Shown: positions 55,930 through 64,000 of the stretch, one piece after another
Numbering within the stretch: the first letter of the stretch is position 1
Layout: every line of letters begins with the position of its first letter
From: Trachythela sp. YZ-2020
Lineage: Eukaryota; Cnidaria; Anthozoa; Malacalcyonacea; Clavulariidae
Assembly (NCBI GenBank): GCA_016169945.1
Contig: JADLSH010000363.1
Coordinates: forward strand, 4,642,001 to 4,706,000
Length of the DNA: 64,000 bases
Direction: 5' to 3'
Made by a program: the position numbers and the translations under genes
The notes under the pieces: model-generated
The model's database searches: none
The model's input: the letters and a program-made list of their open reading frames with translations, nothing else
Told to the model about the DNA's origin: nothing

Positions 55930-56000
55930 GTACGTACAGGGGTGTACGTACAAAGCGTACATACAGCGGTGTACGTACAAGGGTGTGCGTACGGGGGAGT
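55930..56000. repeat. Degenerate 'ggtgtacgtaca' tandem repeat
   Basis: Four or five units of 'ggtgtacgtaca'/'agcgtacataca', about 17-20 bases apart. Confidence 0.7.
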
Positions 56001-56020
56001 GCGTATGTCTGGAAATTCTC

Positions 56021-56203
56021 TAAAGCTTCTGTGGAGCTTCTGTGGAGCTTCTGTGGAGTTTCTGTGAAGCTTCTGTAAAGCTTCTGTGAAGCTTTTGTAA
56101 AGCTTCTGTGGAGCTTCTGTAAAGCTTCTGTGAAGCTTCTGTAAAGCTTCTGTGGAGCTTCTGTGAAGCTTCTGTAAAACTTCTGTGGAGCTTCTGTGGA
56201 GCT
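56021..56203. repeat. 12-bp minisatellite AGCTTCTGTRRA, about 15 units
   Basis: Uninterrupted run of 'agcttctgtgga', 'agcttctgtaaa' and 'agcttctgtgaa' variants. Twelve is a multiple of three, so two minus-strand frames stay open as Gln/Lys/Leu/Ser/Thr repeats; I treat these as artefacts. Confidence 0.92.
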
Positions 56204-56802
56204 CTCCAAAATATGAGTAATTAGTGACGCTTGGATGCATGCATAAATTAACACAGACAAAGATTAACGTTTTAAACAATTTATTCCTTTAGGTATAACA
56301 ATTATTTACACAAATATACAGTTATTAAACATATTGTCCAGCTTTTACACTGTTTTCTGTGCGAGGGTCGATGTGAGGTCGATGTGAGGTAGAAATAATT
56401 TTTGAGCAAAATCGAAATCCTATCGAAAGGACGTGGCTGCGAAATTTTTTCTCAACCGCCCCTACGTTCGCATTGCCCCACTCCCCTGCCCTACCATCGC
56501 CCCGGCGTGCCTGGCGTAAGTTCGCAGTATACAATCTCTGAGTGGGCATGTTTGAAAAAGTGTTTCTATTTTTTTGTATTAGAGTTGAGAGGCGACACCA
56601 ACGACTACTGGATGGTTTGAAGTTACTGTTGATGGAAAACTTGTTCATTCAAAAAAGGTAATACACAAGTGATATATATCATACCACATGATTGGCTGTG
56701 TTGTATTACATTTTATAATATAGCATTTGCAAACTCTCAACGTTGATTGGCTGAGAGCCGTGAGTAGGGTAAAAGGGGAGGTCCTGGCACACTTTTTTGC
56801 TG
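56204..56802. other. Flank between minisatellite and virus-like cluster; left edge of cluster not found
   Basis: Nothing recognisable. 'gttgattggctgagagccgtgag' (56,741) is followed by the repeat-rich promoter region. I looked for an inverted terminal repeat that would mark the left end of the element and could not identify one without the right end. Confidence 0.4.
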
Positions 56803-56976
56803 ACGTCAGCACTTTTCAAACGTCAGCACTTTTGACACCCGATTCCCCTTCCACTCCACCAAAACACATCCGTGAGGAGTCCAAAATATGTTTTAAAACA
56901 TACTTGATAAAATATTTTTTAAAACATGGTTGATAAAATATTTTGTAAAAATTCGGGAGACCATCGGGAGACCATC
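56803..56976. promoter_or_regulatory. Direct-repeat region upstream of the first virus-like gene
   Basis: Three sets of direct repeats in 175 bp: ACGTCAGCACTTTT at 56,803 and 56,820; TTAAAACAT-nn-TTGATAAAATATTTT at about 56,892 and 56,918; CGGGAGACCAT at 56,954 and 56,965, with a third CGGG abutting the TATA box. Such iterated blocks suit enhancer or origin function, but this is inference. Confidence 0.55.
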
Positions 56977-57014
56977 GGGTATATAAGGACATGCATAAGT
57001 ACATGTGAAATAAA
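56977..57014 (+). promoter_or_regulatory. TATA-type promoter of the first virus-like gene
   Basis: GGTATATAAGGACATGCATA, then 'agtacatgtgaaataaa' directly before ATG 57,015. An almost identical block precedes ATG 57,376, which supports a common promoter and start context. TATATAA is about 30 bases from the ATG, so the 5' UTR would be only a few bases or a second site is used. Confidence 0.75.
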
Positions 57015-57329
57015 ATGACTGTTATAACCTCAACCGTTAAGTTTTACAAGGATAACAAAGCGTCTCAAATACGCATTGGGATGTTAATACGACGAAATCC
57101 TTTTAAGTTTGTAAGTTACAATACAAACTACGAAGACACTGACAAAATCCAAGTTGATATATTACCAGATGAGTTAGTAATACACTTTTCCAAGGAGTCT
57201 TATTTTGAGTACGATCCAAGTCTTCCATTAGCCACTTTGAAAGACCTGGAAGATATTGGTGATAATGATCCTAATGAGATGTTTACCGCGGAGGAACAAC
57301 TTGAGTTAGGATTGTACGAAGAGTTTTAA
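57015..57329 (+). CDS. Small acidic protein, unknown, first gene of virus-like cluster
   Basis: 104 residues from the ATG right after the TATA block. The N-terminal half is basic and beta-prone (KFYKDNKASQIRIGMLIRRN); the C-terminal half is strongly acidic (DLEDIGDNDPNEMFTAEEQL). No Cys, no membrane segment, no motif I know. The promoter-proximal position and shared TATA block with the next gene suggest coordinate, possibly early, expression. The acidic tail could be an interaction or activation region; that is a guess. No hairpin follows it; the next promoter starts within about 10 bases of its stop. Confidence 0.7.
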   Translation: MTVITSTVKFYKDNKASQIRIGMLIRRNPFKFVSYNTNYEDTDKIQVDILPDELVIHFSKESYFEYDPSLPLATLKDLEDIGDNDPNEMFTAEEQLELGLYEEF

Positions 57330-57337
57330 AGCAGGAT

Positions 57338-57375
57338 AGGTATATAAGGATATGCATGAGAGTACATGAAATAAA
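57338..57375 (+). promoter_or_regulatory. TATA-type promoter of the Cys-rich gene
   Basis: GGTATATAAGGATATGCATG, 'agagtacatgaaataaa', then ATG 57,376. Differs from the 56,977 block by only a few bases, while the coding regions following are unrelated. The conservation is therefore of the promoter itself. Confidence 0.8.
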
Positions 57376-57948
57376 ATGGCTTATATTGAGATAGTAAGTA
57401 TGGGGAACAAATACATGTGTAACAAGTGTAAACACTATGGTAATTTAAATGAAATCCAACTTCATGTAAAAACTACACACAATGGTAAAAAAATTAAGTT
57501 TTACTGTCCATACTGTTCGTATAAGACATATGATCTTAACACATACACTGATCACATAGACCAAGAGGAAAGTGACGAGTGTATGTGTGGATGGTGTTCT
57601 ACTTGTGACCTAGGTCATGAAAAAGATAACAAGGAGTGTTGTTGTGATTGTGGTCCATGTGAGGCAATGTACAAAGATAATAAGTGTAAATGTGAGTGTG
57701 CAGGAAATGATTATTGTAAAGGAAAATGTAAGTGTGACGAGTGTGACAAAGAATGCGGTAGATTGTGTTATTGTAAGGGCGATAAATCTTGTAAGGGCGA
57801 GTGTGAGTGTGAGTGGTGTGATGAGTGCCATATAAACTGTGACTATTGTGAGTCTTGTACAAATCCAGATTGTGAATGTGACTTTTGTATCCATCGTAAT
57901 ATAGGTGGATGTGATAATAGTGACTGTGAGTATGAATGTTGTAACTAA
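57376..57948 (+). CDS. Zinc-finger protein with an extremely Cys-rich C-terminal half
   Basis: 190 residues. The N-terminus has two C2H2-like fingers (CNKCKHYG...H.KTTH at about 15-36; CPYCSYKT...YTDHID at about 44-61). From about residue 68 on there are some 40 cysteines, mostly as C-x-C, C-x2-C and C-C-x-C, alternating with acidic and Lys residues (e.g. CKCECAGNDYCKGKCKCDEC). No signal peptide, so cytosolic or nuclear. Possible roles are metal binding, nucleic acid binding or a disulfide-rich virion part; the sequence does not decide. The repeated short Cys units suggest internal expansion. A stem-loop lies 10 bases after the stop. Confidence 0.75.
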   Translation: MAYIEIVSMGNKYMCNKCKHYGNLNEIQLHVKTTHNGKKIKFYCPYCSYKTYDLNTYTDHIDQEESDECMCGWCSTCDLGHEKDNKECCCDCGPCEAMYKDNKCKCECAGNDYCKGKCKCDECDKECGRLCYCKGDKSCKGECECEWCDECHINCDYCESCTNPDCECDFCIHRNIGGCDNSDCEYECCN

Positions 57949-57957
57949 AACAAACTT

Positions 57958-57984
57958 ATTTGTAACCTTTAACGGGTTACAAAT
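57958..57984. terminator. 3' stem-loop (ATTTGTAACC / GGTTACAAAT)
   Basis: 10-bp perfect stem with a 7-base loop, 10 bases after the stop at 57,948. Same stem family as at 58,553, 59,138, 62,811 and 63,255. Read as a transcript 3'-end signal by position. Confidence 0.7.
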
Positions 57985-58021
57985 CGTATTTTTAAACAAC
58001 TTCTAAAGAAAATAATAAACA

Positions 58022-58261
58022 ATGTCACAATCACAATGTAATTATATTGTTACTAAAACAAACAAATTTTCATGTTCAGAATGTACATGGTCGGGTAGTC
58101 CTACTGGTTTAAAATTACATAAGAAAGCAAGTCATGGTCTTAAATATAGTCATAATAATAAGCCTAATCATCTTAAATGTCCCACTTGTGATAAAGTTTT
58201 TACAAACATGTTTAAATTTAAAAAACACCACGAACTTGAACATCCTTTTAAAAGAATGTAG
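58022..58261 (+). CDS. Two-finger C2H2 protein, paralogue 1
   Basis: 79 residues, basic. Finger 1 is CSECTWSGSPTGLKLHKKASH (C-x2-C-x12-H-x4-H type) and finger 2 CPTCDKVFTNMFKFKKHHEL ending in EH. Finger spacing and the S/E-CTWxG-x-TG-x-KLH core are shared with the next gene, so the two arose by duplication. Likely a DNA- or RNA-binding regulator. ATG sits in the cluster's A-rich context (aataataaacaATG). No hairpin between this gene and the next, which starts 43 bases on. Confidence 0.78.
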   Translation: MSQSQCNYIVTKTNKFSCSECTWSGSPTGLKLHKKASHGLKYSHNNKPNHLKCPTCDKVFTNMFKFKKHHELEHPFKRM

Positions 58262-58303
58262 ACAAATCGTAATATTTTAAAACAAAACAAAGTAAGAATA
58301 AAA

Positions 58304-58540
58304 ATGCCTAGAACTCGAAATTACAAATGTACTTATCCCTTAGATAAAGTAACCTGCACACACGAATCGTGTACTTGGGAAGGATCTTTTACTGGACATA
58401 AATTACACGCAAAAGTAACCCATGGTACTGGTAGTAAACATTTAGACTGGAAAAAAGAATCTGTGGTATGTGATACATGTAAAAAGGTTTTTAAAAATAA
58501 GGACATATTAAAAAAACACATGGTGGTAAAAAACCATTAA
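58304..58540 (+). CDS. Two-finger C2H2 protein, paralogue 2
   Basis: 78 residues, basic. Finger 1 CTHESCTWEGSFTGHKLHAK then VTH (C-x4-C spacing, slightly atypical), finger 2 CDTCKKVFKNKDILKKHMVV then KNH. Clearly related to the preceding gene. Its last codons overlap the start of a block of about 65 bp (58,530-58,594) repeated before the gene at 59,181. Likely a nucleic-acid-binding protein. The stem-loop after its stop is the palindrome at 58,553. Confidence 0.78.
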   Translation: MPRTRNYKCTYPLDKVTCTHESCTWEGSFTGHKLHAKVTHGTGSKHLDWKKESVVCDTCKKVFKNKDILKKHMVVKNH

Positions 58541-58552
58541 ATCAGAGAATAA

Positions 58553-58583
58553 AAATTTGTAACTTACAATTGGTTACAAATTT
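58553..58583. terminator. 3' stem-loop (AAATTTGTAAC / GTTACAAATTT)
   Basis: 11-bp perfect stem, 9-base loop, between the stop at 58,540 and ATG 58,596. The same 31 bases recur unchanged at 59,138-59,168. Confidence 0.75.
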
Positions 58584-58595
58584 ATAAATAAAATA

Positions 58596-58931
58596 ATGAG
58601 TGACAGTAACTTTAAAGTAATATTGAATTCGGTTGGTTTTGGTTTGTTATGTGCATCTGCTGTGTTGTTGATTCAAAAATATTTTAAAAAACCACTTAAA
58701 CTTAAAGACGAAGCATGTAAATGTGGAGTGTGTGAGTGTGAAGACATTGTACCTAAAAACACTGATTGTTTTGAAGAAGATTGTAATGGTGTTTTTAAAA
58801 AATATAAATTAGACACAAGCTGTCAACTATGTTTGTTTAATGATTTTACCTATGATAACACACCTTGTACTAGAAAAGAAGAAGGAATAAAATGTGGAGG
58901 TATTATGAGGGACTGGGTTAGTTTAGAATAA
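58596..58931 (+). CDS. Membrane-anchored Cys-rich small protein
   Basis: 111 residues. One transmembrane segment near the N-terminus (about 8-27, VILNSVGFGLLCASAVLLIQ) followed by basic KYFKKPLKLK, then a Cys-rich domain (CKCGVCECED ... C.EEDC ... CQLCLF ... C ... C) to the C-terminus. No cleavable-signal look: the hydrophobic stretch is preceded by acidic and polar residues. The pattern fits a virion-membrane or host-membrane protein with a zinc- or disulfide-stabilised domain. I do not recognise a family. Confidence 0.72.
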   Translation: MSDSNFKVILNSVGFGLLCASAVLLIQKYFKKPLKLKDEACKCGVCECEDIVPKNTDCFEEDCNGVFKKYKLDTSCQLCLFNDFTYDNTPCTRKEEGIKCGGIMRDWVSLE

Positions 58932-59137
58932 ATGGATATCCCAGTATGCGTGTGTTAAAAAATATTGGTGTGACACACACCCAAAAAAAAAACGAAACAG
59001 AGATATGTATAAGATTTGCCAGTATTTGGTGTGAAAGTATGAAAAGTGCGTCTAAAAACTAGACGCATTCTATCCATAATCTTGGGGTAATTTCATTTTA
59101 TTAGAATTAACGAAAAAACCATTAAACCAGAGAACAA
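58932..59137. promoter_or_regulatory. Intergenic spacer with a second, different hairpin
   Basis: Longest gap within the rightward genes. Holds 'ggtgtgacacacaccc' (about 58,967) and a perfect 8-bp hairpin TGCGTCTA-aaaac-TAGACGCA at 59,047-59,067. The right end ('aaccattaaaccagagaa') is a duplicate of 58,532-58,549. Confidence 0.5.
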
Positions 59138-59168
59138 AAATTTGTAACTTACAATTGGTTACAAATTT
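59138..59168. terminator. Stem-loop upstream of the structural genes, identical to 58,553
   Basis: Part of the block of about 65 bp duplicated from 58,530-58,594. Lies 12 bases before ATG 59,181, so it may act as a leader element as well as a 3' end. Confidence 0.7.
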
Positions 59169-59180
59169 ATAAATAAATAA

Positions 59181-59726
59181 ATGGCACTTAGATATGGATA
59201 CTCAAATGATGAGCCAAACTACATACACAACCTAAAACCTATTAGAGCGGAACCAATGTACTTACTAACGACTAGTGATTTCCGTGGGACTTATGATGGA
59301 TTGGCTAAAGATGCTTGGCGTCACCCTATGGACAGAAAGAAAAACTATGGACCAATGTACATCTGGTGTCACAATTGGTTTACGGAAAACTCGGGGATAT
59401 CTCTTAGAGCTCACATTATGGACGACGACGCTGATATTACAACACCAATGAGAATATTATATTCTTTATACTGTACAATGTCAGATGGTACAAAAATAAC
59501 AAGGGACCTAAAAGAAATAAATTTAGCCACGAAACAGATTCCAGGAACAAATTTTTTCATGTTGGATGAAGAATTTAGTATTCCAGAAGTTGTCCCTGAG
59601 TACAAAACCATGGAACTTATGGTTGTAAAATTTAAACAACTTTCTGATGAAACAGGTGGTAACGAGTCCACTCTCCATGTAACCACTTACACTGTTGAGC
59701 CAAACAATCTTTTTAAGTCTAAATAA
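59181..59726 (+). CDS. Putative virion structural protein (unknown family)
   Basis: 181 residues; starts MALRYGYSNDEP. No Cys cluster, one Trp-rich part (AWRHPMDRKKNYGPMYIWCH, about 45-64), many alternating hydrophobic residues, no membrane segment. The next protein starts MALAFGYTKDNR: the MAL-x2-GY-x2-D start is shared. With only four bases between stop and next ATG, the two are probably co-expressed. A beta-sandwich minor capsid or fibre-base protein would fit, but no fold can be proven by eye. It is too short for a double-jelly-roll major capsid protein. Confidence 0.6.
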   Translation: MALRYGYSNDEPNYIHNLKPIRAEPMYLLTTSDFRGTYDGLAKDAWRHPMDRKKNYGPMYIWCHNWFTENSGISLRAHIMDDDADITTPMRILYSLYCTMSDGTKITRDLKEINLATKQIPGTNFFMLDEEFSIPEVVPEYKTMELMVVKFKQLSDETGGNESTLHVTTYTVEPNNLFKSK

Positions 59727-59730
59727 AATA

Positions 59731-60801
59731 ATGGCATTAGCATTTGGATACACAAAAGATAATAGATACACATCGGTAGGAGGTCAATCTGGACCCCCCG
59801 GAGCGCAGGGGCCTCAGGGTCCCGATGGGATACAGGGTGAAAGAGGAAACCCCGGGCAACGAGGTCTTCGAGGATTTAAGGGGGAAAGGGGCCTCGGGCA
59901 AAAGGGAGATACCGGGGCAACTGGGATCGCGGGGGCAAAGGGAGATACTGGGCAACAAGGAATCCAAGGTCCACATGGGCTTACAGGGAACACTGGTGCA
60001 CAAGGGATTACTGGGTTAGAAGGTCCACGAGGTTATCAAGGTTTACATGGTATTAAAGGTGATACCGGAATACAAGGTCCGCCAGCCATTAGAGGAACTG
60101 ACGGTGCAAAAGGTGACAAGGGTGATTCAGTAACCGGAGCAAAGGGAGATACCGGAGCAATTGGGCCAAGGGGATTTACTGGAATGGAGGGGGCAAGTGG
60201 AGATCGAGGAAGTATTGGTGGTCAGGGGAATTCTGGATCTCGAGGGCAAAAGGGAGATACCGGGGCAACTGGGCAAAAGGGAGATACCGGGTCAACCGGG
60301 TCAAAGGGAGATACCGGGGCATCACCATCTAATAATTTTTTGATAACTTATAAATCTAAGCCTGGAAAGTACTATCTCATATCTGCAAAAAATAATATTG
60401 CATGTACTAGAAATAATAACCTAATTTTGAAGTCCATAATAACAACAAAAGGAGATTACATACTTAAATACAAACTAAGATTGGTACCAACTTATTTAGA
60501 GATTGGTGATCCAAATATTACTAAGACAAGTAGTTGGTACTCATCAGATTTTGGTGATTATGCTAATCTTGACACATGTATATATGTAGAAAGTGTTATT
60601 AAACCATTTTTTAAAGTTGTAACAGGTGGTACAATATACAGTTCAAGCTTACCACATCATATTTACATGGAGGGTATTGTTTCCCTTGAGAAAGGAGCAA
60701 CAGTAGAACTAAAATCTTACACAAATTATTTTGGTGACTTTTACAGTTATCTTCTTTACGATGTCATAGATCCTGTCATGGTTCTTACCAAAGTTAGTTA
60801 G
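59731..60801 (+). CDS. Collagen-like fibre protein with globular C-terminal domain
   Basis: ATG 59,731 is chosen over a non-ATG extension to 59,695 because it follows the A-rich start context and keeps the MALAFGY start shared with the upstream gene. 356 residues: short head (1-17), about 59 Gly-X-Y triplets (about 18-195) with small breaks (near 54-56, 112 and 134), then a Gly-poor, Tyr/Leu-rich beta-like domain (about 196-356). GDTGAKGDTG-like units are near-tandem at the DNA level, and this part is far more GC-rich than its neighbours. There is no signal peptide and no animal collagen C-propeptide or NC1. Such proteins serve as fibres or tail tips in phages and large DNA viruses, so receptor or host binding is the probable role. 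Confidence 0.82.
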   Translation: MALAFGYTKDNRYTSVGGQSGPPGAQGPQGPDGIQGERGNPGQRGLRGFKGERGLGQKGDTGATGIAGAKGDTGQQGIQGPHGLTGNTGAQGITGLEGPRGYQGLHGIKGDTGIQGPPAIRGTDGAKGDKGDSVTGAKGDTGAIGPRGFTGMEGASGDRGSIGGQGNSGSRGQKGDTGATGQKGDTGSTGSKGDTGASPSNNFLITYKSKPGKYYLISAKNNIACTRNNNLILKSIITTKGDYILKYKLRLVPTYLEIGDPNITKTSSWYSSDFGDYANLDTCIYVESVIKPFFKVVTGGTIYSSSLPHHIYMEGIVSLEKGATVELKSYTNYFGDFYSYLLYDVIDPVMVLTKVS

Positions 60802-60817
60802 CTTGGCACCTTGTATC

Positions 60818-60839
60818 TCCAATCATTTGTGTGATTGGA
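60818..60839. terminator. Stem-loop after the collagen-like gene
   Basis: TCCAATCA-tttgtg-TGATTGGA, 8-bp perfect stem, 16 bases after the stop. The sequence differs from the ATTTGTA family but the position is the same. Confidence 0.6.
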
Positions 60840-60856
60840 AATATGGTAAAATAAAA

Positions 60857-61450
60857 ATGAAAACACCATTTAACATGCTTATAACAGGTTCAACGGAGTG
60901 TGGTAAAACATATTACCTGTTAGAAACATTAGTCAACGACTATTTCCATCATTTTCAATACATATTCCTTGTGTGTCCAACATTCGAGTACAACAAAACA
61001 TACCAAGATTGGAAATACAAGGACTCTCAAGGATTTTACGCAATACAATGTGAACAAGATCAAGTGGAAAGTTTCCTTAAATACATTGTCGATAAATACA
61101 AAGGTACTAATTCCCTAATAATATTAGACGACTGTGCAAGTTCACGGACAGTTAAAACCAGAACATCTGAGCTCGTTAACTTAGCTTTTTCCGCACGACA
61201 TTACAACCTAAGTACGATAGTCATCACCCAAAAATTAACAGCCATCACACCTGCTTATCGTGAGAACATAGCGAAGTTAGTAATTTTTGACACACCCAGT
61301 GCGCTTGCATGGAAAACAATCTCTGATGAGTTTCTTGATGTTCCGAAACAAGAACAAAACACCCTTAGAAATACACTTAAAGAAAACAAATACGCACGGT
61401 TGGAAATTAACCTTAGGTATCCAAGGTTTCATAAAATAATAAATGGATAA
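60857..61450 (+). CDS. A32-like / FtsK-HerA-type genome-packaging ATPase
   Basis: 197 residues from ATG 60,857 (A-rich context taaaataaaaATG; an upstream non-ATG start at 60,803 would run through the hairpin). Walker A GSTECGKT at about 11-18. Walker B with two acidic residues, SLIILDDCAS, at about 90-99. A Gln sensor follows (IVITQKLTA), plus an Arg-rich helix before it (SARHYN). Known: this P-loop family pumps viral DNA into preformed capsids in poxviruses, Polintons, adintoviruses and relatives. Length is near the usual 200-270. No break; all catalytic motifs are present. The stop overlaps the next gene's start (ATGGATAA). Confidence 0.85.
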   Translation: MKTPFNMLITGSTECGKTYYLLETLVNDYFHHFQYIFLVCPTFEYNKTYQDWKYKDSQGFYAIQCEQDQVESFLKYIVDKYKGTNSLIILDDCASSRTVKTRTSELVNLAFSARHYNLSTIVITQKLTAITPAYRENIAKLVIFDTPSALAWKTISDEFLDVPKQEQNTLRNTLKENKYARLEINLRYPRFHKIING

Positions 61451-61892
61451 TCAAGATGACATTGAAAAATTACGCGAGGAATTAATAGACCTCTCTGAGA
61501 AAGGTTACATTAACCAGACTAAGTCATATCTAAAAAATAAAAGAAGGGGAACACCATCCGTGTTAAAAAAAATAATGGATGAGTACATTAAATACAGGGA
61601 TGATGTCAACAAACATAAGATGGCTGTTAATTTTGTGTTACTTGGTGTATCTATTAGTGATAATTTTTGTGGTAGTTACTTTAAGATTGATGACAGTCAA
61701 GAATTTATAAAAGTGATACTTGCTGATGAAAACATTATGTTTGTGATTAAGGATCTATTACCTAGTTATACACCAGATGATTATTACAGTAAATATGTAT
61801 TGGCAGGTGTCGCATTTGGTACATTATGTTATGACAGAGTAAGTGTGGTTGGAAGCGAAGTGATAGAAGTGGTTGAAAATGTAGAAGAATAA
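61443..61892 (+). CDS. Unknown protein, overlaps the ATPase gene
   Basis: 149 residues; ATG at 61,443 inside the last codons of the ATPase (8-base overlap). Basic, helical first part (EKLREELIDLSEKGYINQTK; KNKRRG), mixed C-terminal part with a weak hydrophobic stretch (about 118-130). No Cys motif, no membrane anchor of full length. Overlap with the packaging ATPase suggests co-expression, possibly a packaging or assembly role. Last of the rightward genes. Confidence 0.72.
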   Translation: MDNQDDIEKLREELIDLSEKGYINQTKSYLKNKRRGTPSVLKKIMDEYIKYRDDVNKHKMAVNFVLLGVSISDNFCGSYFKIDDSQEFIKVILADENIMFVIKDLLPSYTPDDYYSKYVLAGVAFGTLCYDRVSVVGSEVIEVVENVEE

Positions 61893-61904
61893 AAGAGAAG
61901 CCTC

Positions 61905-62022
61905 TGTTCTAAAAAAAAATTATCATCCTGTTACGAACATTTTCCATGGTTTTCCCATAGACACAGTTCGGTCCAGACTTATAGTAAATTACTCCAAACT
62001 TATCACCTCGAATATCTGCATC
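61905..62022 (-). pseudogene. Scrap of a family B DNA polymerase gene, minus strand
   Basis: The minus strand of 61,924-61,967 reads NCVYGKTMENVRNRM. The YGKTMENVR stretch matches, from memory of the family, the conserved region around motif B (K-x3-N-S-x-Y-G) of protein-primed family B polymerases in Polinton-like elements. The open frame around it is only a few dozen codons, stops at about 61,909 in an A-run and has unrelated sequence before the motif. The hAT-type element at 62,023 is inserted in its 5' part. It is therefore a remnant, not a gene. Confidence 0.6.
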
Positions 62023-62780
62023 CAGGGTTTTTTTTAAGAAAAATTTAGAACTGCACATTTTGTCATACTGTCCCAACATGCCAGGGCCTTTTTCAAGAAA
62101 TGGTTAGTGGAGGGGGGGCATCAACGAAAAGGGACCTAACAAGAATGTGGTATATTGAGGGTGTGTGGATGTGGTTGGGGGTCCTCCCCAGAAAATTTTT
62201 GAGTTTCTGTGGCTTGATTTCCTGCATTTTCAGAGACATTTTTTGAAATATCCCATCTAAACAGACTGAGCTTTTGGTGTAAAAGCAATGCTTTGTTATG
62301 AGAATATCATAACTTTCTTCTGACCTATAAACTTAAGAACTTTTGGACAAAAGGGACCTTCACTGGGAGGATAGTTTACTGGGGCTAACATTGGGGCTGG
62401 GGGGGATTTGGCCCCCCAGTATATTAATTAAAAAAGGCCCTGCGACATGTCATAGCATGAAATTCAACTCGCGCAAATGGCACCATTTTTTCTTATTAAA
62501 CTTTCATTAACTGATTCTCATCCCTTCAAATAGAAACGATGCTGAAAATTGTCAACAAAAATTATATTGTTGAGTTTTTTATGAGAAATTCTGGTACTGC
62601 TTTTGTTATTGAAGCTATATGTATTCCATTTATTCCTTCGATTACTTTAGTTTTCTACAATAAATATCCATATCCTGAAAGTTCGTATTTTTTTCAACTG
62701 CACAAAATATTTTTTAGAGTTGCACAAATTGATTTAGAACTGCACATTTTGTGTAGAACTGCACGTTAAAAAAAACCCTG
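62023..62780. mobile_element. hAT-type non-autonomous element, copy 2 (8-bp duplication TCTGCATC)
   Basis: Same CAGGGTTTTTTTTAA inverted ends as at 21,891, with perfect TCTGCATC at 62,015-62,022 and 62,781-62,788. 758 bp; the nested CAGGGCCTTTTT MITE is at 62,082-62,442. By eye the two copies differ by 3 bp in a G-run near 62,110. The 76-codon frame 62,539-62,769 belongs to the element. Inserted between the converging virus-like gene sets, harming none. Confidence 0.95.
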
Positions 62781-62810
62781 TCTGCATCCATCCGAAGTTT
62801 AATGAACCAA

Positions 62811-62838
62811 AAATTTGTAACCTAAGGGCTACAAATTT
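62811..62838. terminator. 3' stem-loop of the leftward genes (AAATTTGTA / TACAAATTT)
   Basis: 9-bp perfect outer stem plus CC/GG. Just beyond the stop of the gene ending at 62,845, i.e. 3' of it on the minus strand. Confidence 0.7.
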
Positions 62839-62844
62839 TACTTT

Positions 62845-63243
62845 TTACTGTTTTAAAATGCGGACTTCCTCTTCTAAATTTCGGACTCTTTCTTTTAAAG
62901 TGATCACTTCTTCACTTACATCATTTAGATCACTCTTCATTGTATAATAATTTTCCCAAAAAGATTTAGCCGACTTTTTACCTCTTTCTACAGCCTTGTC
63001 ACTTTTTAAAATATCAACTTTTCTACTAAGAAGCTTTTTTACGGTTACTCTTTCACTATTACATGAACATCTATGTTGATATGGGTTACAATCACAAGGT
63101 TGTGACTCACTTAGGAAATAAATATCTGGTGACATATCTTCAATAATTGTGGTAAGATCTCTTCTTGGTCTTGGTCCATCCATATCGTTGTCAATGTCAT
63201 AGTCATCGTTAGACAATAATAATTTTTGATCATTCTTACTCAT
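62845..63243 (-). CDS. Coiled-coil protein of the virus-like cluster, unknown
   Basis: 132 residues from ATG 63,241-63,243. The N-terminus is acidic (NDDYDIDNDMDGPRPRRD). A small Cys/His group CDCNPYQHRCSC lies at about 50-61. The C-terminal part (about 95-132) has heptads (VITLKERVRNLEEEVRILKQ), a likely coiled coil for oligomerisation. No membrane segment. Flanked on both sides by ATTTGTA stem-loops, so it is probably its own transcription unit. Role unknown; scaffold or regulator are both possible. Confidence 0.72.
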   Translation of the reverse strand: MSKNDQKLLLSNDDYDIDNDMDGPRPRRDLTTIIEDMSPDIYFLSESQPCDCNPYQHRCSCNSERVTVKKLLSRKVDILKSDKAVERGKKSAKSFWENYYTMKSDLNDVSEEVITLKERVRNLEEEVRILKQ

Positions 63244-63254
63244 TTATATTAAAA

Positions 63255-63283
63255 AAATTTGTAACCTATAAGGCTACAAATTT
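63255..63283. terminator. 3' stem-loop of the leftward genes, second
   Basis: AAATTTGTA ... TACAAATTT with 11 bases between, lying 3' of the gene that ends at 63,299 and just upstream of the start at 63,243. Confidence 0.7.
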
Positions 63284-63298
63284 ACACATTCCATTGAT

Positions 63299-63697
63299 TT
63301 AATCCTCAGCAATATCGTTAGAGACATACTCACCCACTTTTCTCAGTCTTTTCACTTTAAAGTTTAGATGCTTCACACCGTCTTTTTCAAACACCGAATG
63401 ACATTCAAAAATAACATTAATATGCACCCTACCAACATTTAAGAGTTCTGTTTTTTGTTTTTCAGATAGGCCACCTACGGACAAGTATATTGTGTTACCA
63501 TTATACCCCTTCATAAACTCTTTTGTCTCGTATTCAGCTTCCAAACTTAATAGTTGTTTTACCATATCATCATCCTCGATGATAATTGGTACATTATAAC
63601 CACCATTTTTAAATTTTGACTTTTCAACACCCCATGTTAAACAACTTGGGATTTCAAATACTAATGGACTTTCAAATTTCACTGTATTACCACTCAT
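63299..63697 (-). CDS. Unknown protein of the virus-like cluster
   Basis: 132 residues from ATG 63,695-63,697 to a stop at 63,299. Beta-rich look (alternating hydrophobics: VKFESPLVFEIPS, RVHINVIFECHSVF, LNFKVKRLRKV), acidic patch IIEDDDMV, two Cys, no membrane segment. It does not resemble a polymerase, integrase or protease. A single-domain beta-barrel nucleic-acid-binding or virion protein is a plausible guess. 40 bases separate it from the next leftward gene's stop, without a stem-loop, so the two may share a transcript. Confidence 0.7.
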   Translation of the reverse strand: MSGNTVKFESPLVFEIPSCLTWGVEKSKFKNGGYNVPIIIEDDDMVKQLLSLEAEYETKEFMKGYNGNTIYLSVGGLSEKQKTELLNVGRVHINVIFECHSVFEKDGVKHLNFKVKRLRKVGEYVSNDIAED

Positions 63698-63737
63698 CTC
63701 TTTATTAGGGTTATTTTAAATCCTATAAACCAAAATT

Positions 63738-63977
63738 TCATTTTACTGCTCTTCTAGTTTGAATTTCGTTGTACGCAAAGTAACCTAACGCTATCGCTAA
63801 AATCCACATGTTGTTACCTAACCACATTAACCCTTTTGCCCCCATACTTAGAACAGTTGAAATAATACTTCCAATGGCACCAAATACAGGACCTAATGCA
63901 CTAAGTATTTTAGCAACCCCCTTACCAAACTTTGACACTCCACGAGCACCGGCAGTAAGAGTACTTCTACCAGCCAT
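63738..63977 (-). CDS. Small hydrophobic, Gly-rich virion-type peptide
   Basis: 79 residues if started at ATG 63,975-63,977 (MAGRSTLTAGARGVSKFGKG); an upstream ATG at 63,993-63,995 would add six. Basic, Gly/Ser-rich N-terminus, then a long hydrophobic part (ILSALGPVFGAIGSIISTVL) and a second apolar segment (MWLGNNMWILAIALGYFAYN), ending basic (QTRRAVK). Small basic/amphipathic proteins of this type act as minor core or membrane-active capsid proteins in adenovirus-like and Polinton-like viruses. That function is inferred from character only. Confidence 0.65.
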   Translation of the reverse strand: MAGRSTLTAGARGVSKFGKGVAKILSALGPVFGAIGSIISTVLSMGAKGLMWLGNNMWILAIALGYFAYNEIQTRRAVK

Positions 63978-64000
63978 GACAATTGTTGTTATCAACCCTG
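63978..64000. other. Window edge within the virus-like cluster
   Basis: The leftward gene set evidently continues past the right edge; nothing can be said about it here. Confidence 0.6.

Follow-up and report, generated by a model that had tools for sequence, protein, structure and literature searches.

As described in the sources cited, Polintons or Mavericks (class Polintoviricetes) have cnidarian members that include a Stylophora element and P1-HM of Hydra, and Polinton-like viruses (PLVs) mostly lack pPolB and the rve integrase (PMC11071308). Adintoviruses are defined by a PolB with an N-terminal OTU-like domain, a hexon recognizable by BLASTp against the hexons of reference adintoviruses and an integrase with a C-terminal chromodomain (PMC11071296). 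According to the account cited here, no Maverick particle had been observed as of 2021 (PMC8097293). The adenovirus fibre is made of an N-terminal tail, a shaft and a C-terminal head, and some adenoviruses have several fibre genes of different lengths (PMC8156859). In protist Polinton-like viruses, collagen is found in a putative attachment protein, where its partners are Peptidase_S74 or phage-tail domains; two of these collagen fibres have adenovirus-type N-termini (PMC12220804). Finally, mRNAs of Mimiviridae and Marseilleviridae follow a hairpin rule, by which palindromes occur between ORFs, behind the stop codons (PMC5413956; PMC4402537).

The window analysed here is a 64,000-nucleotide stretch from the cnidarian Trachythela sp. 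YZ-2020. The gene cluster at 56803..64000 belongs to a Polinton (Maverick), a virus-like element that has integrated in an animal genome, and makes up its left third. The element is about 20.05 kb long and extends from window position 56763 to L010:3812 (L numbers are our locus labels). Its border is at 56763 and not at 56803, where the original prediction had started the cluster. The long inverted termini (217 bp, over 217 alignment columns) are 99.1% identical between left and right and have the AG/CT ends typical of Polintons. A 6-bp target-site duplication is another trait of these elements, and GCCGTG flanks both ends here. The features within the window are collected in Table 1.

Table 1. 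Features of the element in the window, with positions on the forward strand
Feature	Position	Strand	Remark
Target-site duplication GCCGTG, left copy	56757..56762		right copy directly behind L010:3812
Left inverted terminal repeat, AG start	56763..56979		right copy L010:3597-3812, CT end
Candidate promoter TATATAAGG	56980..56988	+	26 nt ahead of first gene's ATG
104-aa ORF, no family	57015..57329	+	
Candidate promoter TATATAAGG of Cys-rich gene	57341..57349	+	
Cys-rich protein, 190 aa, no family	57376..57948	+	
Palindrome (putative RNA hairpin)	57958..57984	+	about 10 nt past stop codon
C2H2 zinc-finger protein, 79 aa	58022..58261	+	
Zinc-finger protein, 78 aa, weak C2H2 match	58304..58540	+	
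Palindrome (putative RNA hairpin)	58553..58583	+	about 15 nt past stop codon, 15 nt ahead of ATG
111-aa protein, hydrophobic N-terminal stretch (by eye)	58596..58931	+	
Palindrome	59138..59168	+	209 nt past nearest stop, 15 nt ahead of next ATG
Class B spike candidate, 181 aa	59181..59726	+	shared tag = residues 1-16 (59181-59228)
Collagen fibre of class D, 356 aa, with N-terminal tag, G-X-Y shaft (about 18-198) and 158-aa head	59731..60801	+	ATG 59731
A32-type packaging ATPase, 197 aa, Walker A GSTECGKT	60857..61450	+	starts at ATG 60857
149-aa protein, unknown family	61443..61892	+	overlaps ATPase stop
Insertion, 758 bp, ends CAGGGTTTTTTTTAA/TTAAAAAAAACCCTG, TCTGCATC flanking both sides	62023..62780		empty site in L011
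Palindrome (putative RNA hairpin)	62810..62839	-	core motif 9 nt past stop of gene 62845-63243
132-aa ORF, no family	62845..63243	-	
Palindrome (putative RNA hairpin)	63255..63283	-	core 18 nt past stop of gene 63299-63697, 14 nt ahead of next leftward ATG
132-aa ORF, no family	63299..63697	-	
C-terminal part of 296-aa protein, hydrophobic C-terminus	63738..64000	-	whole ORF L009:738-1628

Right of the cluster lie genes for an integrase, a PolB, a 405-aa capsid protein and a protein with a Bro-N domain. Its core genes make the element a Polinton, and it is the spike cassette that is unusual. The prediction of a Polinton-like endogenous DNA virus is supported by the flank it had proposed to check, where replication and capsid genes and the matching inverted terminus and 6-bp duplication are found; the claim that no known virus group matches was too strong, the core genes being those of Polintons. 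The copy was also thought to be young, in keeping with the near-identity of its termini and with the 99% identity of the ATPase of another copy. That it reads without stops, from which it was suggested that it may still be functional, holds for the genes listed in the window but not for the integrase to the right, which is broken into two ORFs.

The likeness to Polintons extends to the retrovirus-like (rve) integrase, PolB, the A32-type ATPase, the double-jelly-roll capsid protein (from a model) and the many genomic copies, the ATPase having at least 150 matches in the genome. The integrase matches rve at 1.3e-7 (32.3 bits against a cut-off of 32.6); one piece matches the IS481 transposase in NCBIfam (6e-10), and the C-terminal piece has no chromodomain match at E 0.1. 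Two overlapping pieces of PolB match PF03175 at 8.5e-4 (profile positions 52-224) and 9.5e-6 (236-461), both below the cut-off, and Pfam finds no PolB match in the full-length protein. A Peptidase_C65 match, also below the Pfam cut-off (E 0.13), is a weak OTU-type hint. With a PolB that carries this hint, the rve integrase, the modelled capsid protein and a probable animal host, the element resembles adintoviruses; Pfam gives no chromodomain match and no clear OTU match. For the hexon, 145 relatives were found, and among the 120 listed 20 name Paramuricea clavata and none names another organism. A 226-aa protein (L009:4144-4824), picked by eye, is a candidate minor capsid protein (penton); it has no Pfam family, and its sole NCBIfam match is at chance level. 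An adenain/Ulp1-type protease, another Polinton gene, is not recognized by Pfam among the 24 scanned ORFs of the window copy. Searches of the PDB by sequence with the ATPase, capsid and PolB proteins and with spike, head and capsid profiles yielded nothing reliable. Scans of viral metagenome contigs with the ATPase, its alignment (A1) and the capsid (A2) and spike (A3) alignments found no relative, and the window has no tRNA and no Rfam match at the gathering threshold.

Within the window, the nine rightward intronless ORFs (57015-61892) and the leftward ones from 62845 onward are confirmed. Two start codons are corrected, to ATG 59731 for the collagen protein and to ATG 60857 for the ATPase. 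The packaging ATPase matches Pox_A32 at 2.5e-16 (60.3 bits, cut-off 22.8) and a PHROGs terminase at 1.4e-8; it is under purifying selection, with low dN/dS in the 21 copies read. The collagen-like fibre matches PF01391 (8.4e-26). One of the small zinc-finger proteins has a C2H2 match slightly below the curated cut-off (3.2e-5) and the second a weaker one (1.3e-3). The virion-like hydrophobic peptide proposed at the right edge is really the C-terminus of a 296-aa protein. In L011-L015 and L018, the Cys-rich protein has 91-97% identity across the stretch that aligns. The 758-bp insertion is probably a hAT-like MITE, foreign to the element; it contains the ORF at 62539-62769 and is missing from another copy.

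The spike cassette consists of one to four ORFs that share an N-terminal peptide (the tag), and it lies upstream of the ATPase in all 27 copies read. Apart from the window copy, 20 of these were not drawn at random but taken as the top ATPase matches, and six more were hand-picked from lower in the list. Classes A and B are 93% identical over the 16 residues of the tag and 31% identical over the rest of the protein, in a comparison that drew on 31 rows. The full set of classes A, B and C with the unclassed rows has 36, and the five set aside were the fused L017 A (247 aa), the 149-aa L012 B and the three that are unclassed. The tag is conserved at the protein level, not as DNA. As in adenoviruses, several fibre-type genes have a common N-terminal tail (weaker in the collagen class), and in the collagen class the tail is followed by a shaft and a C-terminal head. 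The differences are that the shaft consists of collagen G-X-Y repeats, that as many as four tagged genes stand in tandem and that the tag sequence, by eye, is dissimilar to the adenovirus tail. In protist Polinton-like viruses, too, a putative attachment protein contains collagen repeats, whereas here the collagen is joined to a 158-aa head and its tag is common to collagen-free sister proteins. The class B spike is modelled with a low-confidence tail (residues 1-40) followed by a beta domain; none of 20 candidates in a search with this 181-aa protein reached E 0.001. Structure comparison placed birnavirus capsid, carbohydrate-binding and TNF-like chains among its top rows, but at background Z. 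The fibre matches collagen-type families in PHROGs, many of which are tail fibres. Its head has no Pfam match; a C1q/TNF-like fold was considered for it from the sequence by eye. Polinton core genes with their termini are of a known kind, but the spike-cassette variant appears new: the parts of the literature examined mention no cassette with a common peptide, collagen fibre or 3′ hairpins for animal Polintons.

The fibre head and the ATPase have had different histories (AU p<1e-50, tested on those 16 of the 21 copies whose head is complete, in groups named only after the heads were seen). The rank correlation between them is rho 0.06 (136 non-independent pairs from 17 copies, including L016, whose head frame is lost). 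The different histories suggest that spike-like genes are shuffled between copies, a possible way to change the target of attachment. The same mosaic could come from gene conversion among copies integrated in host chromosomes, rather than from recombination of replicating elements. Templates would be plentiful, given the number of ATPase matches in this single genome, and the data are compatible with exchange before or after integration. We nevertheless consider gene conversion less likely, since both the fibre and the ATPase frames are full in the head-sharing copies (the window copy, L012, L013, L021 and L022) and the ATPase has a low dN/dS, as would be seen if exchanged forms had continued to replicate.

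Palindromes are another feature of these copies. Of 46, 33 lie 8-25 nt past a stop codon, eight have no upstream stop within the locus and five are farther away; one of the sites taken as rightward (L016, 1306) belongs to a neighbouring partial copy. The palindrome at 59138 duplicates that at 58553 within a 71-nt repeat (94% identity). We infer that they are RNA hairpins marking the 3′ ends of mRNAs. Sense was assigned from the side of the ATPase block on which a palindrome lies; among 28 distinct hairpin sequences, the sense form has the greater stability in 24 and the antisense form in three. Could they instead be DNA operators or promoters of the next gene, bound for example by the zinc-finger proteins of the element? 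They are near-symmetric as DNA, and 22 of the 46 are 14-24 nt ahead of an ORF start. This also seems to us less likely, because G-U pairs, where present, are compatible only with the sense RNA, and because at several leftward-gene ends (62810; L011, L013, L014, L015, L018, L021 and L027) the next same-strand ORF of at least 70 aa is 1.6-4.1 kb off; at the leftward end in L029 no such ORF follows. In L019 and L022-L024, the next same-strand ORF is 113-287 nt from the leftward-end palindrome. The putative hairpins resemble those of the giant viruses in lying between ORFs behind stop codons. They differ in belonging to a small integrating element that has no RNase III-type enzyme by Pfam among the ORFs scanned.

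As an explanation of the whole, we favour with some confidence an integrated Polinton whose spikes are docked by the tag and exchanged by recombination and whose mRNAs end in hairpins. The common peptide would serve for docking, as a tail by which several different spikes are held at one capsid site, most likely the five-fold vertex, by analogy with the adenovirus fibre tail on the penton base. The heads may bind cell surfaces, and recombination among co-resident or co-infecting elements may swap them; swapping would change attachment while the core stays the same. Alternatively, the tag may be a signal for virion incorporation or for loading cargo into the particle or assembly site, consistent with its presence on otherwise different proteins and with an N-terminus modelled without structure. 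We give this decidedly less credence: one tagged protein has a collagen shaft and then a head, as is typical of external fibres, and the movement of the head between lineages has been independent of the adjoining ATPase. A host multigene family or chance ORFs can be dismissed with near certainty, as the inverted termini, target duplication and replication and capsid genes form a single 20-kb unit. The presence of both PolB and the rve integrase rules out a PLV.

In closing, docking by the tag leads to a prediction that is small and testable, namely binding of the tag peptide to one capsid protein, and the cassette copies offer natural sequence pairs for finding the vertex protein. The palindromes may be an mRNA 3′-end signal in a style shared with giant viruses. 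We also entertain, without yet favouring it, the view that animal Polintons live as free viruses, or did so until recently, with giant-virus-like hairpin mRNA ends. They would carry interchangeable spikes on a common peptide at one capsid site, recombination between lineages would swap these spikes, and receptor use would so evolve apart from the replication core. The spike set would then be the collagen fibre and up to three short beta-domain spikes. A conserved docking peptide with heads that hop between lineages is what would be expected of virions that meet receptors.

Reading of the ORFs in the window, C332:4642001-4706000, bore out the original prediction of a packed gene cluster: nine genes run rightward and three or more run leftward. 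Extension to the right, proposed at the same time, was fruitful: the right flank (read as pieces L009 and L010) holds a matching inverted terminus, 99.1% identical over 217 columns. GCCGTG stands directly outside both repeats and the element ends in AG...CT. From the repeats and the flanking GCCGTG, the Polinton is therefore about 20.05 kb long.

Coordinates of features in the window, its right flank (L009, L010) and sister copies (L021, L037)
Feature	Location	Remark
Element	C332:4698763-4718812	
Inverted repeat, left	window 56763-56979	
Inverted repeat, right	L010:3597-3812	
11-bp tandem repeat array	window 55977-56236	a short way left of element
TATATAAGG	window 56980, 57341	26 nt upstream of first and second gene; in repeated 48-nt block, 79% identical
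758-bp insertion	window 62023-62780	CAGGG ends; TCTGCATC on both sides
Bro-N genes	L009:9175-9837; L037:153-815	3.6e-25 and 2.4e-8
Third perfect palindrome	L009:9883-9911	between divergent genes
265-aa ORF	L021:2502-3296	upstream of spikes

Blocks similar to the 48-nt block occur in sister copies L011, L013, L014, L015, L018 and L019. The 758-bp insertion, absent in L011, probably entered the window copy after the element's integration; from features typical of the superfamily, we take it to be probably a hAT-like MITE. The 265-aa ORF, with similar, partly shorter ORFs seen by eye in L022-L024, L032 and L034, weakly matches PCNA (PDB, E 0.009; Pfam PCNA_C, 0.016) and may be a Polinton-borne sliding clamp.

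In its own genome (578 Mb, 396 contigs), the ATPase has at least 150 scored matches from 714 candidates, the nearest among those scored being 99% identical. Two matches of equal score lie 5.5 kb apart on contig C138 (L016 and L017), apparently a local tandem duplication of part of the element. Constraint acted on the family during its divergence. When pairs are kept only if dS exceeds 0.02, the ATPase has a median dN/dS of 0.075 (205/210 pairs, 21 copies) and the 181-aa protein one of 0.21 (136 pairs, 17 copies); the median is 0.30 both in the 149-aa protein (189/190 pairs, 20 copies) and in the fibre head (135/136 pairs, 17 copies).

The ATPase and fibre-head genes, some 60 nt apart, differ in history. 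Between the window copy and L021/L022, dS is 1.24/1.29 for the ATPase and 0.08/0.08 for the head, whereas against L014 it is 0.19 and 0.75; synonymous divergence of the head thus falls about 15-fold below that of the ATPase in the first comparison and exceeds it 4-fold in the second. Identity plotted along the genes shifts between the two. In trees of 16 copies, with groups picked after the heads had been inspected, monophyly of the head-sharing copies is rejected by the ATPase data (p 3e-60), that of the ATPase-close copies by the head data (p 4e-53). Since the contrasts run opposite ways in such close neighbors, recombination or gene conversion, rather than rate, explains them. The Bro-N slot seems to be exchanged between copies too, like the spikes, because the proteins at this place are of different kinds and L038 has none among the ORFs listed there.

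The window holds five instances of the palindrome TTTGTAAC..GYTACAAA, all within the element, against 0.02 in shuffles. Among 21 copies scanned, 19 have it, at 46 sites, and L026 and L028 lack it. A G-U pair is readable only on the + strand at 13 of 18 sites in the rightward part, and only on the - strand at 20 of 28 in the leftward part; no site of the 46 has one fitting the opposite strand only. The stems of the other 13 are symmetric or, in three cases, mismatched on both strands. The more stable hairpin is sense at 41 sites, antisense at four and equal at one. Most sites (33/46) lie within 25 nt downstream of a stop codon; five are farther and eight lack such a stop in the locus. A perfect palindrome of different sequence follows the capsid gene at 13 nt, and another, also of different sequence, separates the 136-aa gene from the Bro-N gene. 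Among three further copies checked, the former is retained in L037 (24 nt past the capsid stop) and L039 (82 nt); the latter position is occupied in all three (L037, L038, L039), with a differing sequence in L038. A similar pattern, termed the hairpin rule, is described for Mimiviridae and Marseilleviridae (PMC5413956, PMC4402537). Operators or promoters of the next gene are a rather unlikely alternative. It gains slightly, at the expense of the main reading given below, because 22 of the 46 sites also lie 14-24 nt upstream of a start and because the density of perfect palindromes in L009 equals that of the host (0.33 against 0.34 per kb in the host part of the window; 0.83 in the left part of the element). 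The third perfect palindrome is at odds with a 3′ role.

On balance we favor, with fair confidence, a Polinton with tagged, exchangeable spikes and 3′ hairpins. The titles and abstract openings listed from the open-access literature announce neither such a cassette nor such hairpins in an animal Polinton, and their novelty there is probable, not proven. Collagen is already known in attachment proteins of protist PLVs, relatives of Polintons (PMC12220804). The element would pack itself, via its own ATPase, into a double-jelly-roll capsid, and the cassette would provide alternative spikes, presumably surface-exposed and receptor-binding, with a common flexible tail. Like the fibre tail of adenoviruses in the penton base, this tail probably occupies a single site of the capsid; some adenoviruses carry two fibre genes (PMC8156859).
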